Source: Serinicoccus sediminis (GTDB lineage Bacteria > Actinomycetota > Actinomycetes > Actinomycetales > Dermatophilaceae). Taken from it: a stretch of DNA of 64,000 nucleotides. Within the stretch, counting starts at the first letter, position 1; every line of letters starts with the position of its first letter. The DNA lies in the NCBI RefSeq assembly GCF_004153545.1, contig NZ_SDVA01000001.1, positions 186,001-250,000 on the forward strand. The letters are read 5' to 3'. A model generated the notes under the pieces. That model was not told the origin of the DNA, did not search any database, and worked only from the letters and a program-made list of their open reading frames with translations. Shown here piece by piece: positions 5,449 to 59,286 of the stretch. The translations under genes were made by a program, and so were the position numbers.

Positions 5449-6315
5449 GTGCCCGACCGCCCCTCCGCCCGCCCCGTCGGCACCGTGACGCGGGGCACGA
5501 CGAACCCCAACCGGCTGCGCAAGGTGGACCGCTGGATGGGGTATGCCCTGGGCGGGCTCCTGCGGGCGGCGCCCGACCCGCCGGTGGTGGTCGACCTGGG
5601 CTTCGGCGCCTCGCCGGTGACGGTGCTGGAGCTGGCGGGGAGGCTCGGCCGGATCCGGCCGGACGTGCGGCTCGTCGGGGTGGAGATCGACCCCGGGCGG
5701 GTGGCCCGGGGACGCGAGCTGGCGGACCCGCCGCGGGTCGACTTCGGGCTCGGCGGCTTCGAGGTGCCGCTGCCGGCCGCCCTCGGTGCGGGGGCCCGCC
5801 CGACGGTGGTGCGGGCGTTCAACGTGCTGCGCCAGTATGCCGAGGCCGAGGTCGCGCCGGCCTGGTCCCAGGTGGTGGACCGGCTGGCGCCGGGCGGGGT
5901 GCTCGTCGAGGGCACCTGCGACGAGCTGGGGCGGCTCGCGAGCTGGGTCGAGGTGCACCGTGGCGGCGACGGGCGGCCGGCGCCGCGCACCCTCACCCTG
6001 TCGCTGCGGCTCGCCGGTCTGGACTCACCCTCGGTCGTCGCCGAGCGGCTGCCCAAGGTGCTCATCCACCGCAATGTGCCGGGCGAGCCCGTCCACCGGT
6101 TCCTGGCGGCGCTGGACGAGGCGTGGGCGCGATCGGCGCCGATGGCGAGCTACGGCGCCCGCCAGCGCTTCGTCACCACCGCCCGCACCCTGCGCGACGG
6201 CGGTTGGCCGCTGCTGGGTGGCGTCGCCCGGTGGCGCCTCGGCGAGCTCACCCTCGACTGGCACGCCGTCGCCCCCACCTCGACGACCTCCACCCCCGCA
6301 CAGGACGCGCGGTAG
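5449..6315 (+). CDS. class I SAM-dependent methyltransferase-like protein
   Basis: A 288-residue protein with a Rossmann glycine motif (VVDLGFGASPVT, residues about 41-52), then RLVGVEIDPGRVARGREL, where the acidic residue would hold the SAM ribose. The substrate is unknown. I chose GTG 5449 because TAGGCT lies at 5437-5442, six bases upstream, the leaderless arrangement used widely here. It is divergent from mshA, a pairing I recall in other Micrococcales, but that is not evidence of a mycothiol role. The stop falls inside the first 22-bp repeat array. Confidence 0.7.
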   Translation: MPDRPSARPVGTVTRGTTNPNRLRKVDRWMGYALGGLLRAAPDPPVVVDLGFGASPVTVLELAGRLGRIRPDVRLVGVEIDPGRVARGRELADPPRVDFGLGGFEVPLPAALGAGARPTVVRAFNVLRQYAEAEVAPAWSQVVDRLAPGGVLVEGTCDELGRLASWVEVHRGGDGRPAPRTLTLSLRLAGLDSPSVVAERLPKVLIHRNVPGEPVHRFLAALDEAWARSAPMASYGARQRFVTTARTLRDGGWPLLGGVARWRLGELTLDWHAVAPTSTTSTPAQDAR

Positions 6316-6518
6316 GCATACACAGGACGCGTCCTCGACACACACAGGACACGTGCTCGGCACACACAGGACACGTGCTCGGCACACACAGGACACGTGC
6401 TCGGCACACACAGGACACGTCCTCGGCATACACAGAACACGTGGCCGGCATACACAGGACGCGTCCTCGGCATACACAGGACGCGCGGTCGGCATACTCC
6501 GGACGTCGCCCCCTGCCG
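6299..6518 (+). repeat. 22-bp-period intergenic array, ten units, sense (+) orientation
   Basis: Units begin at 6299, 6321, 6343, 6365, 6387, 6409, 6431, 6453, 6475 and 6497, every one exactly 22 bp apart. The core is CACAGGACRCGT followed by a G/C-rich decamer usually ending GGCATA or GGCACA. The last unit is degenerate (CTCCGGACGTCG). Three central units are identical. There are no unique spacers, so this is not CRISPR. The array starts within the last codons of the methyltransferase gene and ends about 40 bp before DUF2516. Related arrays lie at 6900, 15136 and 57367. Confidence 0.9.
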
Positions 6519-6555: not shown

Positions 6556-6885
6556 ATGCCAGCCATCTACGAGGCACAGAACCTGCTGCAGGTCGTCGTG
6601 GGCGTCACGGTCTTCGGGATGATGCTGTGGGCCCTCATCGACTGCGCCCGCACCCGCGGCGACGCGTTCGCCGCGGCCGGCAAGCGCACCAAGCAGTTCT
6701 GGTTGCTCCTCACCGGCGGCGCGGCGCTGATCGGATTCATCTTCATGTTCAGCCCGTTCTCGATCTTCAACGTCATCGCGGTGGTGGCAGCAGGGGTGTA
6801 CCTCGCTGACGTCCGCCCGGCCGTGAAGTCGGTGCAGGGCCGGGGTGGGTCGTCCACGCACATGGGTCCGTACGGCCCCTGGTGA
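6556..6885 (+). CDS. DUF2516-family small membrane protein
   Basis: A 109-residue protein with two or three hydrophobic segments (LLQVVVGVTVFGMMLWALI, FWLLLTGGAALIGFIFMF, IFNVIAVVAAGVYLADV) and the conserved DCARTRGDAF and GKRTKQFWLLL that I associate with DUF2516. The function is unknown. A TAGGCT at 6543-6548 lies seven bases before the ATG, indicating a leaderless transcript. The gene is bracketed by two 22-bp-period arrays in opposite orientation. Confidence 0.8.
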   Translation: MPAIYEAQNLLQVVVGVTVFGMMLWALIDCARTRGDAFAAAGKRTKQFWLLLTGGAALIGFIFMFSPFSIFNVIAVVAAGVYLADVRPAVKSVQGRGGSSTHMGPYGPW

Positions 6886-6899
6886 GCCCCCCCTAGTCG

Positions 6900-7009
6900 G
6901 GGGGTATGCCCGGAGTCGCCTGAGCACGCGTCCGGTGCGTCCAGAGTACGCGTCCTGTGCGGCCTGAGCACGCGTCCGGTGCGGTCTGATCACGCGTCCT
7001 GTGCGGTGG
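6900..7009 (-). repeat. 22-bp-period intergenic array, four units, minus orientation
   Basis: Units begin at 6922, 6944, 6966 and 6988, with a degenerate one at 6900. On the minus strand they read CACMGGACGCGT, the same core as the array at 6299 but inverted. The array lies between the convergent DUF2516 (+) and dtd (-) stops and is in the sense of dtd. Confidence 0.85.
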
Positions 7010-7033: not shown

Positions 7034-7459
7034 TCAGGTGTCGACCAGGAGGGTGAAGGGGCCGTCGTTGACGAGCTCGACCTCCATCATCGCGCCGAAG
7101 CGGCCGGTGGCGACCTCGATCCCGCGCTGCCGGAGGGCCTCCACCACGGCATCGACCAGCGGCTCGGCCACCGGCCCCGGCGCCGCGTCGCCCCACGAGG
7201 GGCGCCGGCCCTTGCGGGTGGCGCCGTAGAGCGTGAACTGGCTGACGACCAGCACCGGCGCCCCGGTGTCGGCGACCGAGCGCTCGTCGCGCAGGATCCG
7301 CAGCTCGGCGATCTTGCGGGCCATGGTCTCCACGTCGGCGTCGCCGTCGCCGTGGGTGGCGGCGACCAGGGCCACGAGCCCGGGCCGGTCGATCCGGCCG
7401 ACCACCTCGCCCTCGACGGTCACCGACGCGCGGGTGACCCGCTGCAGCACCGCCCGCAC
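7034..7459 (-). CDS. dtd: D-aminoacyl-tRNA deacylase
   Basis: A 141-residue enzyme that hydrolyses D-aminoacyl-tRNA and so recycles mischarged tRNA. It starts [15 protein letters not shown], carries the catalytic SQFTLYG, and ends with [17 protein letters not shown], holding the cross-subunit Gly-Pro motif. The GTG at 7459 gives the normal family length; longer starts add Gly/Arg-rich low-quality sequence. It lies 49 bp after the asparaginase gene on the same strand and ends beside the array at 6900-7009. Confidence 0.92.
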
Positions 7460-15135: not shown

Positions 15136-15396
15136 CACCGGACGCGCGCTCCAGACGCACAGAACTCGTCGTCAGCACACACCGGACGCACGTTTGCGGA
15201 CCCCACCGGAGGACCACGAGGTAGGCACCGTGCCTCGCGCGTACGCCTACCCGCGCCCGCGGGACGGACGCCTTCCCCGTACGTCCAAGACGTGTCCTGC
15301 GCGCTCCCGGGACGCGTCCTGTGTGCTCCCAGCACGAGTCCTGTGCGCTCCCGGGACGCGTCCTGTGCGTGCTGAACACACGTCCGGTGCAGAGGG
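15136..15396. repeat. two facing half-arrays of the 22-bp-period element
   Basis: Plus-oriented units begin at 15136, 15158 and 15180 (CACCGGACGCGC, CACAGAACTCGT, CACCGGACGCAC). Minus-oriented units occupy 22-bp steps beginning at 15287, 15309, 15331, 15353 and 15375 (minus-strand core CACAGGACGCGT). The plus set follows the Nudix gene and the minus set follows the minus-strand gene ending at 15405, so each half is in the sense of the gene it trails. Between them (about 15202-15286) the sequence is G/C-rich and unstructured by eye. Confidence 0.88.
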
Positions 15397-15404
15397 GGCG
15401 CGGG

Positions 15405-16034
15405 TCAGTGCAGGTCGCCGATGCGCCAGAGGCCGGCGCAGGCCGCGAGGTCGTCGGCGGTGTCGCGCAGGCGGGCGGCGCGGGTCACCTGCTCGGACGG
15501 TATGTCGTCGTCCCCCGGGTCGGCGAGACCGACCGCCATGACGTGACAGAAGGCGCTGGCGCGCTCCAGCGCGATGGCGAGGTCGCCGGTGTAGACACCG
15601 CCGAGGATCTGCTCGGTCAGGCGGCGCAGGGCGTCCGGGTCGGGCGGCTCGGCCACCCCGGCGATGGCGCGGTAGACCTCCGTGTGCCCGGCCCCGGCGA
15701 CGAACCGCCGGCCCACCTCCTCGGGCTGGCGCAGCACCCACTCGTGCAGCAGGTAGATCCGCCACAGCGCCCCGGGCAGGCTCCGGGCCGGCCGGTCCGA
15801 CCACAGCTGGGCGACCGTGGCCAGCCCCACCTCGCCCACGAGCCCCACCAGCCGGGAGGCCAGCTCGCTGTCCCCCGAGGACTCGGCGCGTCCACGGCCC
15901 ACCACCAGCTCGGCGCTGCGGTGGGCCGCCTCGGCCACCTCCAAAGGGTCGACCGGGTCGGTGACGTCCTCGAGCCGGTCCGGCGGCCGCAGGGTGGGCC
16001 GGTGGAACCGGCGACGCGAGCCGTCGTCGCTCAT
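15405..16034 (-). CDS. conserved hypothetical protein downstream of treZ
   Basis: A 209-residue, probably helical cytosolic protein, with no signal peptide or membrane helix. Segments such as SELASRLVGLVGEVGLATVA, LPGALWRIYLLHEWVLRQP and GGVYTGDLAIALERASAFCH look conserved in actinomycetes, but I cannot assign a function. It starts in the treZ stop codon (ATGA overlap), so it is translated with the treYZ operon. It ends beside the minus-oriented half-array. Confidence 0.7.
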   Translation of the reverse strand: MSDDGSRRRFHRPTLRPPDRLEDVTDPVDPLEVAEAAHRSAELVVGRGRAESSGDSELASRLVGLVGEVGLATVAQLWSDRPARSLPGALWRIYLLHEWVLRQPEEVGRRFVAGAGHTEVYRAIAGVAEPPDPDALRRLTEQILGGVYTGDLAIALERASAFCHVMAVGLADPGDDDIPSEQVTRAARLRDTADDLAACAGLWRIGDLH

Positions 16035-37826: not shown

Positions 37827-37899
37827 GGGCCTCTAGCTCAATTGGCAGAGCTGCGGACTTTTAATCCGTAGGTTGTGGGTTCGAGCCCCACGGGGCCCA
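37827..37899 (+). tRNA. tRNA-Lys (anticodon TTT)
   Basis: A 73-nt cloverleaf: acceptor arm GGGCCTC pairs with GGGGCCC (one G-T pair), D-arm GCTC...GAGC, anticodon stem GCGGA/TCCGT with loop CTTTTAA giving TTT, and T-arm GTGGG TTCGAGC CCCAC. The discriminator is A. The CCA end is not encoded. Confidence 0.95.
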
Positions 37900-56447: not shown

Positions 56448-56520
56448 GTCCCCATCGTCTAGTGGCCTAGGACCCCGCCCTTTCACGGCGGTAACACGGG
56501 TTCGAATCCCGTTGGGGATG
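56448..56520 (+). tRNA. tRNA-Glu (anticodon TTC)
   Basis: A 73-nt cloverleaf. Acceptor GTCCCCA pairs with TGGGGAT, the anticodon stem CCGCC/GGCGG encloses CTTTCAC giving TTC, and the T-arm is CGGG TTCGAAT CCCG. First of a tRNA-Glu-Asp-Phe cluster. Confidence 0.95.
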
Positions 56521-56544
56521 CACCAGGTCTCGACCTGAAATCGA

Positions 56545-56618
56545 GGCCCCGTGGCGCAGTTGGTTAGCGCGCCGCCCTGTCACGGCGGAGGTCGCGGGTT
56601 CGAGTCCCGTCGGGGTCG
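56545..56618 (+). tRNA. tRNA-Asp (anticodon GTC)
   Basis: A 74-nt cloverleaf. Acceptor GGCCCCG pairs with CGGGGTC, the anticodon stem CCGCC/GGCGG encloses CTGTCAC giving GTC, and the T-arm is GCGGG TTCGAGT CCCGT. It lies 24 bp after tRNA-Glu. Confidence 0.95.
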
Positions 56619-56683
56619 CAGAGTAGGAGCGGCGTGGTCACCGGAGAGATCCGGGGGCCACGCCGGATCACTACTCGTGCCTA

Positions 56684-56757
56684 GGCCAGGTAGCTCAGTT
56701 GGTACGAGCGTTCGACTGAAAATCGAAAGGTCGGCGGTTCGACCCCGCCCCTGGCCA
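56684..56757 (+). tRNA. tRNA-Phe (anticodon GAA)
   Basis: A 74-nt cloverleaf. Acceptor GGCCAGG pairs with CCTGGCC, the anticodon stem TTCGA/TCGAA encloses CTGAAAA giving GAA, and the T-arm is GGCGG TTCGACC CCGCC. The discriminator is A. It lies 65 bp after tRNA-Asp. Confidence 0.95.
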
Positions 56758-57350: not shown

Positions 57351-57366
57351 CCCCGGCGGGGTCGCC

Positions 57367-57410
57367 TACCGCGCGTCCGGTGCGTTTCTACGGCGCGTCC
57401 GGTGCGGGCG
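57367..57410 (-). repeat. 22-bp-period element, two units, minus orientation
   Basis: Units begin at 57367 and 57389, 22 bp apart. The minus-strand core is CACCGGACGCGC. They lie 8 bp after the stop of the minus-strand PhzE-like gene (57418), in its sense, like the arrays at 6900 and 15287. Confidence 0.75.
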
Positions 57411-57417
57411 CCGGCGG

Positions 57418-59286
57418 TCAGGCCAGGGCGTGCCGGACGAGGGCGTGCAGGGCGCGCATGCCGTCACGGGACAGGACCGACTCCGCGTGGCCCTGGATGC
57501 TGGCCACCCGCTCGCCGCGCAGCCCGACGACCGCGTCGTCCGGCTCGTGCACCGCCGTCTCCAGCGGGCGCCCGAGCAGCTCCGCCGGCCCCGGACGGGC
57601 CACGAAGGTGTTGTAGAAGCCGATCCGGTGCACCTCGCCCCACAGGTCCACCGGGATCTGGACCCCCTGGTTGGGGGTGGGGAGCTTGGTGACCGCGAGC
57701 CCGGCCATCGAGGCCAGCACCTGGTGGGACAGGCAGACCGCCAGGACCGGCAGCCCCGCCTCCAGGCGGGTCCCGACCAGCTCGTGCAGCCGGGCGATCC
57801 GGGGGTCCTCCAGGTCGGTGGGGTCCCCGGGGCCGGGGCCGAAGAGCACGAGGTCGTGCCGCACCCCCTCCCCCGCGACGTCCGTGACACCGACCGTCTC
57901 CCAGCGGCGGACCTCCGGCACCATCCCCAGGTGGCGCACCATGTGGGCGAGCATCTGGGTCCAGGTGTCCTCCGCGTCGACGACGAGCACGCGGCGACCC
58001 AGCAGGTCGGGGTCCGGGCGCGCCCCCTGGGGGCTGAGCCAGAAGGGCGCGAGGGAGTCGTTGCGGGCGGCCAGGTCGTCGGCGACGCCCGGCAGCGAGC
58101 CGAGGTCCACGGCATACCCGAGGTCGCGGCGCGGCCGCAGCCCGAGCGCCGCCAGGACGCCCCTGGCCTTGGCGGAGGTCTCGGCGCACTCCGACACCGG
58201 GTCGCTGTGCCGCACCAGGGTGGCGCCGGCACTGACCGTCACGCTGCCGTCCCCGCGCAGGTGCGCGGTCCGGATGAGGATGGGCGCGTCCAGGGTCTCC
58301 CCGCCCTCGTCGTCCTCCTCCAGCAGCGCGAGCACGCCGGAGTAGTAACCCCGACCGGTCTCCTCGTGCCGGGCGATGACGGTGCAGGCGTTCTCCATCG
58401 GGGAGCCGGTGACCGTGGGGGCGAACATCGTCGTGCGCAGCACGTCGCGGACGTCGGCGTCGCTGCGCCCGTCCAGCAGGTACTCGGTGTGGGTGAGGTG
58501 CGCCATCTGCTTGAGGTAGGGCCCGGTGATCCGCCCGCCGTCGGAGCAGATCTGGGCCATCATCTTCATCTCCTCGTCGACGACCATGAAGAGCTCCTCG
58601 GTCTCCTTGGTGTCCTTGACGAAGGCCCTGAACTCCGGCTCCACCTCGGCCTCGTCCGCCGGGTGCCGGAAGGTGCCGGAGATGGGGTTCATCCAGACCC
58701 GGCCGTCGCGCACGCTGACGTGCCGCTCCGGCGTCGCCCCGACGAGGGCGTGCCCGGGCGTGTGCACCGCGAAGGTCCAGTAGGCGCCGCGCTCGTCGAC
58801 GAGCAGCGACCGCAGCCAGGTGAGGGCGGCGACGGCGTGGTCGCCGGCGCACCGCGCGAGCACGTCGCGCCGGATGACGAAGTTGGCGCCCTCGCCCTCG
58901 CCGATCTCCTCCTCGATGACCCTCCCGACGGTGCGGGCGTAGTCGTCGTCCTCGACGCTGAAGTGCTCGCCGGTCAGCTCCACCGGGTCCTGCGGCAGCG
59001 CCGCGACCAGCTCGTCCAGCCCGACCCGAGCGGTACGGGTGGGTTGCAGCACGCGCAGCGGGGTGTCGTCCTGCCGGGCGTCGAAGCCCCGCTCGGCGAT
59101 CTGCCGGAACGGCACCATCGCGAGGACCGGCGCGCCGCCCCGCGGCCGCGGGATCTGGCTGAGCAGGTCGAGGTCCACCACGTCGCCCAGCAGGATCTCG
59201 GCCTCGTCCTGGCCGTCCCGCCACAGGACCGCCCAGGCCTGCCCGGCGGGGTCGGCGAGGATCTCGTCCAGCAGGCGCGGCGGCAT
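57418..59286 (-). CDS. PhzE-like fused chorismate aminating enzyme (TrpE-GATase order)
   Basis: A 622-residue fusion: chorismate-binding domain first (TPERHVSVRDGRVWMNPISG, TVTGSPMENACTVI, YYSGVLALLEED, TAHLRGDGSVTVSAGATLV), then a glutamine amidotransferase (DLVLFGPGPGDPTD, VLAVCLSHQVLASM with Cys, QGHAESVLSRDG with His). This length and order fit 2-amino-2-deoxyisochorismate (ADIC) synthases such as PhzE, and less well anthranilate synthase fusions. It differs from PabA-PabB at 50097, which has the opposite order. ATG 59286 follows a minus-strand CAGACT. It is divergent from the siderophore-interacting protein. Confidence 0.8.
   Translation of the reverse strand: MPPRLLDEILADPAGQAWAVLWRDGQDEAEILLGDVVDLDLLSQIPRPRGGAPVLAMVPFRQIAERGFDARQDDTPLRVLQPTRTARVGLDELVAALPQDPVELTGEHFSVEDDDYARTVGRVIEEEIGEGEGANFVIRRDVLARCAGDHAVAALTWLRSLLVDERGAYWTFAVHTPGHALVGATPERHVSVRDGRVWMNPISGTFRHPADEAEVEPEFRAFVKDTKETEELFMVVDEEMKMMAQICSDGGRITGPYLKQMAHLTHTEYLLDGRSDADVRDVLRTTMFAPTVTGSPMENACTVIARHEETGRGYYSGVLALLEEDDEGGETLDAPILIRTAHLRGDGSVTVSAGATLVRHSDPVSECAETSAKARGVLAALGLRPRRDLGYAVDLGSLPGVADDLAARNDSLAPFWLSPQGARPDPDLLGRRVLVVDAEDTWTQMLAHMVRHLGMVPEVRRWETVGVTDVAGEGVRHDLVLFGPGPGDPTDLEDPRIARLHELVGTRLEAGLPVLAVCLSHQVLASMAGLAVTKLPTPNQGVQIPVDLWGEVHRIGFYNTFVARPGPAELLGRPLETAVHEPDDAVVGLRGERVASIQGHAESVLSRDGMRALHALVRHALA

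Follow-up and report, generated by a model that had tools for sequence, protein, structure and literature searches.

The window analysed here is a 64-kb stretch (64,000 nucleotides) of the genome of Serinicoccus sediminis (G000). A gene encoding 288 amino acids (5449–6315, + strand) carries at its 3' end a tandem array of 22-bp units (array 1, 6299–6496, +), detected both by TRF (6299–6504, period 22, 9.4 copies, 0% indels) and by a matrix of the unit, which placed nine units, all on the + strand, at 6299, 6321 and onward to 6475 (scores 19.9 to 26.8). The first-pass annotation of this DNA had counted ten units from 6299 to 6497; nine are clear and in phase, but the tenth (6497–6518, +), also in phase, has decayed below the matrix threshold. 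The array begins in the last codons of the gene, as had been noted: unit 1 overlaps the final 17 nt, and the TAG stop (6313–6315, +) occupies unit positions 15–17 and closes the protein tail AQDAR*. For this gene, earlier named a methyltransferase, a Pfam scan returned no match at E ≤ 1e-5. A DUF2516 gene (6556–6885, +) has array 1 on one side and array 2 (6916–7003, −) on the other; the four units of array 2 are sense to the D-Tyr-tRNA deacylase gene ahead of it (7034–7459, −; its start is the gene caller's provisional pick among ATG and GTG codons). Array 3 (15136–15179, +; two units) lies in a convergent region opposite array 4 (15280–15389, −; four units at 15302–15389 and a weak fifth at 15280), which is sense to gene 15405–16034. 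Array 5 (57361–57404, −; two units) is sense to a chorismate-binding/GATase gene (57418–59286). The three further places that the first pass had listed in the window therefore all hold arrays, each sense to the preceding gene, but array 3 begins 165 nt past the stop of its gene.

All 21 matrix matches above 12 in the window fell within the five arrays, and five windows simulated with a Markov-3 model gave 1, 0, 2, 1 and 0 such matches; the arrays are hence not a chance product, on a matrix trained on the same arrays that it scores. Genes were called, here and throughout, with a codon-usage caller made for this analysis instead of a standard annotator, and by these calls (58 gene pairs in the window) arrays occupy three of the 13 convergent regions, one of the 32 tandem regions and none of the 13 divergent ones. 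An Rfam scan of the window at the gathering score returned only four tRNA genes (37827–37899 and 56448–56757).

The unit has the consensus CACMGGACGCGYGSTCAGNCCG (logo of 209 units). Positions 1–12 form an asymmetric core, CACMGGACGCGY, which is near-invariant except for A or C at position 4, where C is slightly commoner across the family, and C or T at position 12; weaker preferences follow for T15, C16, G18 and C21. Units are direct, non-palindromic repeats, and those within a single array resemble one another. The palindromic GGACGCGTCC and the CACGTG pointed out earlier do occur, as variants of some units and not as conserved features. OmpR-type regulators use two half-sites; we rejected a unit built from two 11-bp half-sites, none being visible by eye in the logo.

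The spaced motif is abundant outside the window, as the first pass had expected. Briefly, we searched G000 with BLAST and with a covariance model built from three units on sequence alone, fetched the better matches, and counted at least 61 arrays of two or more units (277 units). Arrays contain 2–11 units at a fixed 22 bp. The complete genome G012 has 48 arrays, and Serinicoccus chungangensis, classed in Ornithinimicrobiaceae, and an uncultured Serinicoccus together have 58 in 46 loci, which were chosen with a strict pattern; from contig numbers and matches, these two are probably G028 and G029. Across the genomes of 84,980 species, a collection that may not include the genome the window comes from, a strict two-unit pattern matched only these same two. 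With the covariance model at E ≤ 0.01, 21 of 58 searched genomes matched; 18 of them belong to the window's genus, and the three outside it gave one weak match apiece (E 0.005–0.009).

Spacing within the arrays is rigid. When spacing was left unconstrained in four related genomes, units and their neighbours gave 560 distances of at most 120 bp, and 546 of these were exactly 22; the remaining 14 were 44 (nine), 66 (two), 43 (two) and 13 (one), so that only three were out of phase. Detection by the 12-nt core alone gave 673 distinct pairs of neighbours no more than 60 bp apart, of which 608 were at 22; the pairs at other distances include likely chance core matches. There are no unique spacers, as first described: the spacer belongs to the repeat, and neighbours share an identical spacer in 137 of the 608 pairs, which sets the arrays apart from CRISPR. 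At the other extreme, 156 of the 608 differ at five or more of the 10 spacer bases. As a yardstick we compared the interval from stop codon to array (both ≤44 nt) in 50 pairs of orthologous sites, which are not independent because one site can enter several pairs; in 36 of them the change in length was not divisible by 22. Pairs held at 22 despite differing spacers, taken with this yardstick, argue that spacer length is kept while spacer sequence drifts. Unit number varies between orthologous sites, so turnover by unequal exchange can add to the upkeep of the period, and unit turnover inside arrays can by itself help maintain one. At the textbook value of 10.5 bp per helical turn, 22 bp is 2.1 turns, and 32 bp, a second period described below, is 3.05 turns. 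The first pass had ascribed the spacing to DNA or RNA rather than to protein. The constraint indeed fits DNA better than protein; it also fits DNA better than RNA, for which there is little fold signal.

We classified arrays by flanking genes in three sets: G000 (convergent 33, tandem-sense 17, tandem-antisense 7, divergent 4), G012 (26, 11, 7 and 4, respectively) and the Serinicoccus loci (31, 18, 7 and 1, plus one array with no gene called upstream). The pooled 167 arrays, which related genomes share by descent and which are thus not independent, include 90 between convergent and 9 between divergent genes. A gene in sense precedes 136 of the 167; 30 lack one, and 1 lacks an upstream gene call. 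The proposed link to stop codons was borne out, as the first base of 110 of the 136 sense arrays falls from −17 to +30 nt relative to the stop, 22 begin farther off and 4 overlap the called gene more deeply. In convergent regions the nearer stop is that of the sense gene in 61 of 90 cases and that of the other gene in 27, with 2 ties. Tandem regions gave a sense:antisense ratio of 46:21 pooled over the three related, non-independent sets, and 17:7 in G000 alone (p = 0.06). Orientation relative to flanking genes is therefore not random, but weaker than first claimed: it is a bias, not a rule, and by these counts a position behind a stop codon is the stricter regularity and sense orientation the looser one. 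Many of the exceptions, antisense arrays included, reappear at orthologous sites, for example antisense arrays 28–61 nt from the start of the following gene. The proteins encoded ahead of the arrays belong to many families (19 of 50 sense owners in G000 scanned, two without a match). We note a 22-bp array that separates two divergent genes, one for a PAPS reductase and one for a short GntR-type regulator (L166:1679–2148; G000 C27, about 124,580–125,050); G012 also has an array between PAPS-reductase and GntR-type genes, a possible lead to a regulator.

The preponderance of convergent regions (90 of 167) and the helical phasing could suit a topological or nucleoid element, a seat for a topoisomerase helper or nucleoid-associated protein that would take up supercoils or order the DNA between transcription units without stopping RNA polymerase; REP sequences have likewise been hypothesised to act on supercoiling (PMC3733652). 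The sites, however, are asymmetric, lean to one orientation and also follow tandem genes, and we regard this explanation as unlikely. Asymmetric, dispersed sites also bring to mind polar replication-fork or segregation signals of the Tus or KOPS kind. Replication polarity gave no such pattern: with the origin assumed at coordinate 1 and the terminus at half the length, 26 arrays of G012 are codirectional and 22 head-on, which leaves that idea scarcely credible.

Units also supply stop codons. In 32 of the 136 sense arrays the first unit begins 17 nt ahead of the gene end, and all 32 use the TAG at unit positions 15–17; the next commonest stop-to-array distances are 3–5 nt. Ten different proteins of G000 receive their tail and stop from unit 1 (APDAR in five; AQDAR, AQDVR, APDAS, APDAT and APDAP in one each). 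Ten genes read on the opposite strand stop 8 nt into an array; the stop codon is TGA in every case, which is the TCA at unit positions 15–17 read in reverse. In relatives lacking the 22-bp array, the malQ product has other C-termini (e.g., SREA, SRRS or NRGD), so that the malQ tail was probably acquired with the array. Near-identical tails in ten different genes and a probably acquired one speak for an interspersed repeat of a minisatellite kind, selfish or neutral, that would spread by copying and survive mainly where it is least harmful, just past stop codons and off promoters; unit 1 may bring its own stop codon, so that an insertion would end the host protein cleanly.

Comparison between genomes bears on this explanation from both sides. 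For 38 of the 61 G000 arrays, G012 has an array between the same two orthologous neighbours, and 31 of the 61 have a counterpart between orthologous neighbours in the Serinicoccus loci. The malQ gene was found in 30 of 31 genomes, and its array is common to G000, G012, G028 and G029. Other genomes have at the malQ end a different repeat every 22 bp (GACAGGACACGYG, G002 and G025), a repeat every 32 bp (GACCGGGGACGTGGTGTG in G001, GAAACCTCCCT-type in G010 and G006) or, in many cases, no repeat. Behind the XPB helicase gene, arrays occur only in the same four genomes; 0 of 24 readable orthologs beyond the near relatives has one (the G024 sequence ends at its contig end), and in G011, G026 and G007 the gene order is conserved and the short gap is free of arrays. 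TRF found arrays at 3 of 25 S9 peptidase orthologs (G008, G019 and G010), all 32-bp and of another family; G018 has a two-unit 32-bp repeat by eye, and no array was seen in the remaining 21 genomes. In G030, nothing more than remnants is left at malQ, XPB and S9. Among 15 other species, in samples partly centred on malQ or known matches, 15 of 39 orthologs of G000 array-bearing genes had a 22-, 32-, 33- or 44-bp array within 120 nt, compared with 35 of 1,028 gene ends, some of the TRF matches (e.g., G011 malQ) being possibly unrelated repeats. Because sampling centred around malQ, 30 of the 39 are malQ and its neighbour C20:32586 (7 of 15 each with an array); outside that pair the figure is 1 of 9. 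We make no general claim of site conservation beyond the four close relatives. Absence at many orthologous gene ends indicates that, over long times, a single array can be done without.

The patchy presence among species, the varying unit number at orthologous sites and the likeness of units within one array all favour a selfish repeat. Weighing against it are the arrays retained between orthologous neighbours in G012, the spacing that remains 22 between neighbours with widely different spacers, the sense bias, the use of period 22 or 32 by different sequence families, and a search for the RAYT (Y1_Tnp) transposase (PF01797) that found it in 0 of 31 genomes, with positive controls detected. 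We consider a selfish extragenic repeat a serious rival, and give it a substantial minority of our belief.

Further repeat families occur in the genus. In 1.26 Mb from 16 of its genomes, non-coding tandem arrays with periods of at least 18 bp peaked at 22 (11 arrays) and 32 (16 arrays), with period 33 in two and other lengths scattered; coding arrays in this sample had periods that are multiples of three in 78 of 82 cases. Neither peak appeared among 24 non-coding arrays in 0.34 Mb from seven genomes of other genera, a sample that left out two short pieces (G032 and G039). Paired GACCGAGCG words, allowed at 18–45 bp, matched 252 times across 20 of 31 genomes (12 in G000), and reversed-pattern controls gave 0 or 1 per genome. 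Among the 150 of these pairs listed, which include none of the 12 from G000, the distance was exactly 32 in 141 and 33 in four, and the values 21, 30, 36, 39 and 45 occurred once each. By unit, the array types are 22-bp CACMGGACGCG, 22-bp GACAGGACACG and 32-bp GACCGAGCG. The cores CACMGGACGCG, GACAGGACACG, GACCGGACAGG, CACCGGGCGTC and GACCGAGCGCG share AC(C/A)G and on that account may be versions of one site; TGCGAGGGAGTCTGC (G016) and GTACGARACC (G010) have no obvious fit to it. G000 itself also has a four-unit, 33-bp GACCGAGCGCCGC array (C55:79911–80041, L013). A second family, (G/C)ACCGAGCGCCGCGAATGGTTG-like with period 33 or 32, coexists with the 22-bp family in the same genomes, and a 32-bp copy at L145:6766–7084 sits between divergent genes. 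The GACCGAGCG core is sense to the preceding gene in 1 of 9 non-coding matches in G011, which, with the divergent L145 array, indicates that this family need not mark gene ends everywhere.

Several neighbouring repeats came up in the same material. At L253:13440–13760 (G010), two opposed 32-bp arrays surround a long perfect palindrome, GTATGCCGAGGCGCGCCTCGGCATAC, the arms of which contain part of the octamer GGTATGCC (GGCATACC). This octamer has 22 copies in the 64-kb window, 3–8 per 20-kb sample of the same genus (L252, L262, L277 and L286) and 0 in three 20-kb samples of other genera (L320, L323 and L326). In G036, from another family of the order, a 19-nt intergenic word, GGCGGGATTGCATGATCAC, recurs with periods 37 and 42 (L321:10196–10314 and L322:2075–2192), so other genera may own comparable, differently spaced repeats.

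The periods of 22 and 32 bp and the species-specific units could be accommodated by a genus-wide chromosomal gene-end system, in which a putative protein on phased asymmetric sites would form a polar roadblock terminator. Protein and sites would co-evolve, which would account for the species-specific unit sequences, and spacing would switch by one helical turn (22 to 32 bp). In this full form we find the proposal rather doubtful.

High-GC actinobacteria have few recognisable terminators, and in the fetched loci a hairpin followed by T residues was found at 7 of 238 convergent gene ends and at 5 of 96 sense-array ends. We rejected intrinsic terminators, there being no G+C hairpin with a T run at array 1 (0 between positions 6000 and 7200) and few at array ends. 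Nor did RNA structure gain good support across 25 arrays: the sense-strand fold z-score averaged −0.67 against first-order Markov sequences (array 1, −1.09), the consensus fold has 4 pairs, and Rfam gave no match at the arrays. The antisense strand of array 1 folds better than shuffles (z −2.65), yet the antisense mean over 25 arrays is −0.49. A repeated RNA that guards 3' ends or binds an RNA-binding protein would agree with the position at likely transcript ends and with the core, which we take to resemble the CAGGANG repeat of CsrB RNA. The weak folds argue otherwise, an RNA need not hold 22 or 32 nt, and a CsrA/CsrB sponge was dismissed after CsrA (PF02599) was found in 0 of 31 genomes, with positive controls detected. 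We judge an RNA element very unlikely.

We tentatively favour, with somewhat less than even confidence, a different reading: the arrays would be same-face DNA platforms for a putative protein that, where genes end, would block transcription or insulate it, in the manner of stoperators. The asymmetry of the sites, their fixed helical phase, their place behind genes and the scarcity of RNA structure together point to a protein along one DNA face. The sites, their phase, the gene-end placement, the sense bias and the species turnover are directly observed, whereas protein binding, its being one protein, and its action on transcription are what we infer. Each unit would be an asymmetric sequence-specific DNA site, read through the core and the weaker spacer preferences. 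A row of the putative protein at a gene 3' end would pause or halt RNA polymerase; alternatively, the bound row might shield the neighbour from read-through and antisense transcription. Antisense arrays near the start of a following gene might, as a guess, stop backward transcription from that promoter. Counting against the platform reading are the tandem orientation of 46:21, the 31 of 167 arrays without a preceding sense gene, the G011 and L145 placements of the GACCGAGCG family, the interspecies turnover and the lack of any binder among the results. The first-pass reading as a whole is partly supported.

Of proteins known to work in such a way, the repressors of Cluster A mycobacteriophages are the nearest. 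Stoperators of these phages (L5, Bxb1) are asymmetric 13-bp sites in short intergenic spaces, mostly aligned with transcription, varying slightly from one related phage to another and proposed to stop elongation; the repressors bind the 13-mers as monomers, and site reversal abolishes the block (PMC9283540 and PMC6550527). The cognate repressor has an HTH and a stoperator domain. The arrays here share an asymmetric core (12 nt) and intergenic sites; as to orientation, 136 of 167 follow a sense gene, but tandem regions give 46:21. They differ in lying on a bacterial chromosome as tandem arrays of 2–11 units at a fixed 22 bp. A search of 31 genomes for relatives of the Bxb1 repressor gp69 (E ≤ 0.01, run without a positive control) found none, so the tie is one of likeness in working and not of membership.

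Other known elements are more distant. MIRU/VNTR of mycobacteria are intergenic tandem units of variable number, transcription-oriented, some touching stop codons; MIRU units are 46–100 bp and lie inside operons. The present arrays resemble them in having tandem units of variable number between genes, but we rejected MIRU because the unit is 22 bp, not a multiple of three, and often lies between convergent genes (90 of 167). REPs are 20–40 bp palindromes (PMC3733652 and PMC2817692) for which effects on supercoiling, termination and mRNA stability are hypothesised (PMC3733652). Many short, clade-specific extragenic copies recall REP/BIME, whereas the direct, non-palindromic units and the missing RAYT (0 of 31) set them apart from that class. 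Behind mammalian rRNA genes, TTF-I bound to a row of oriented Sal-box sites ends transcription; this resembles the row of oriented sites behind a gene seen here, but is eukaryotic and confined to a single type of locus. TTF1 is associated with both Pol I termination and polar fork arrest (PMC11358750).

In the titles and abstract openings of the open literature, outside which lie most subscription journals and all bioRxiv preprints, we found no description of these arrays and none of tandem repeats in Serinicoccus, in line with their having been called undescribed. If the platform reading is true, a phased two- or three-turn repeat at stop codons, replaced between species, would be a testable answer to how genes of high-GC actinobacteria end. 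If the arrays are instead selfish, they would be unusual in furnishing stop codons and in holding to a helical period with no RAYT transposase in the genome.
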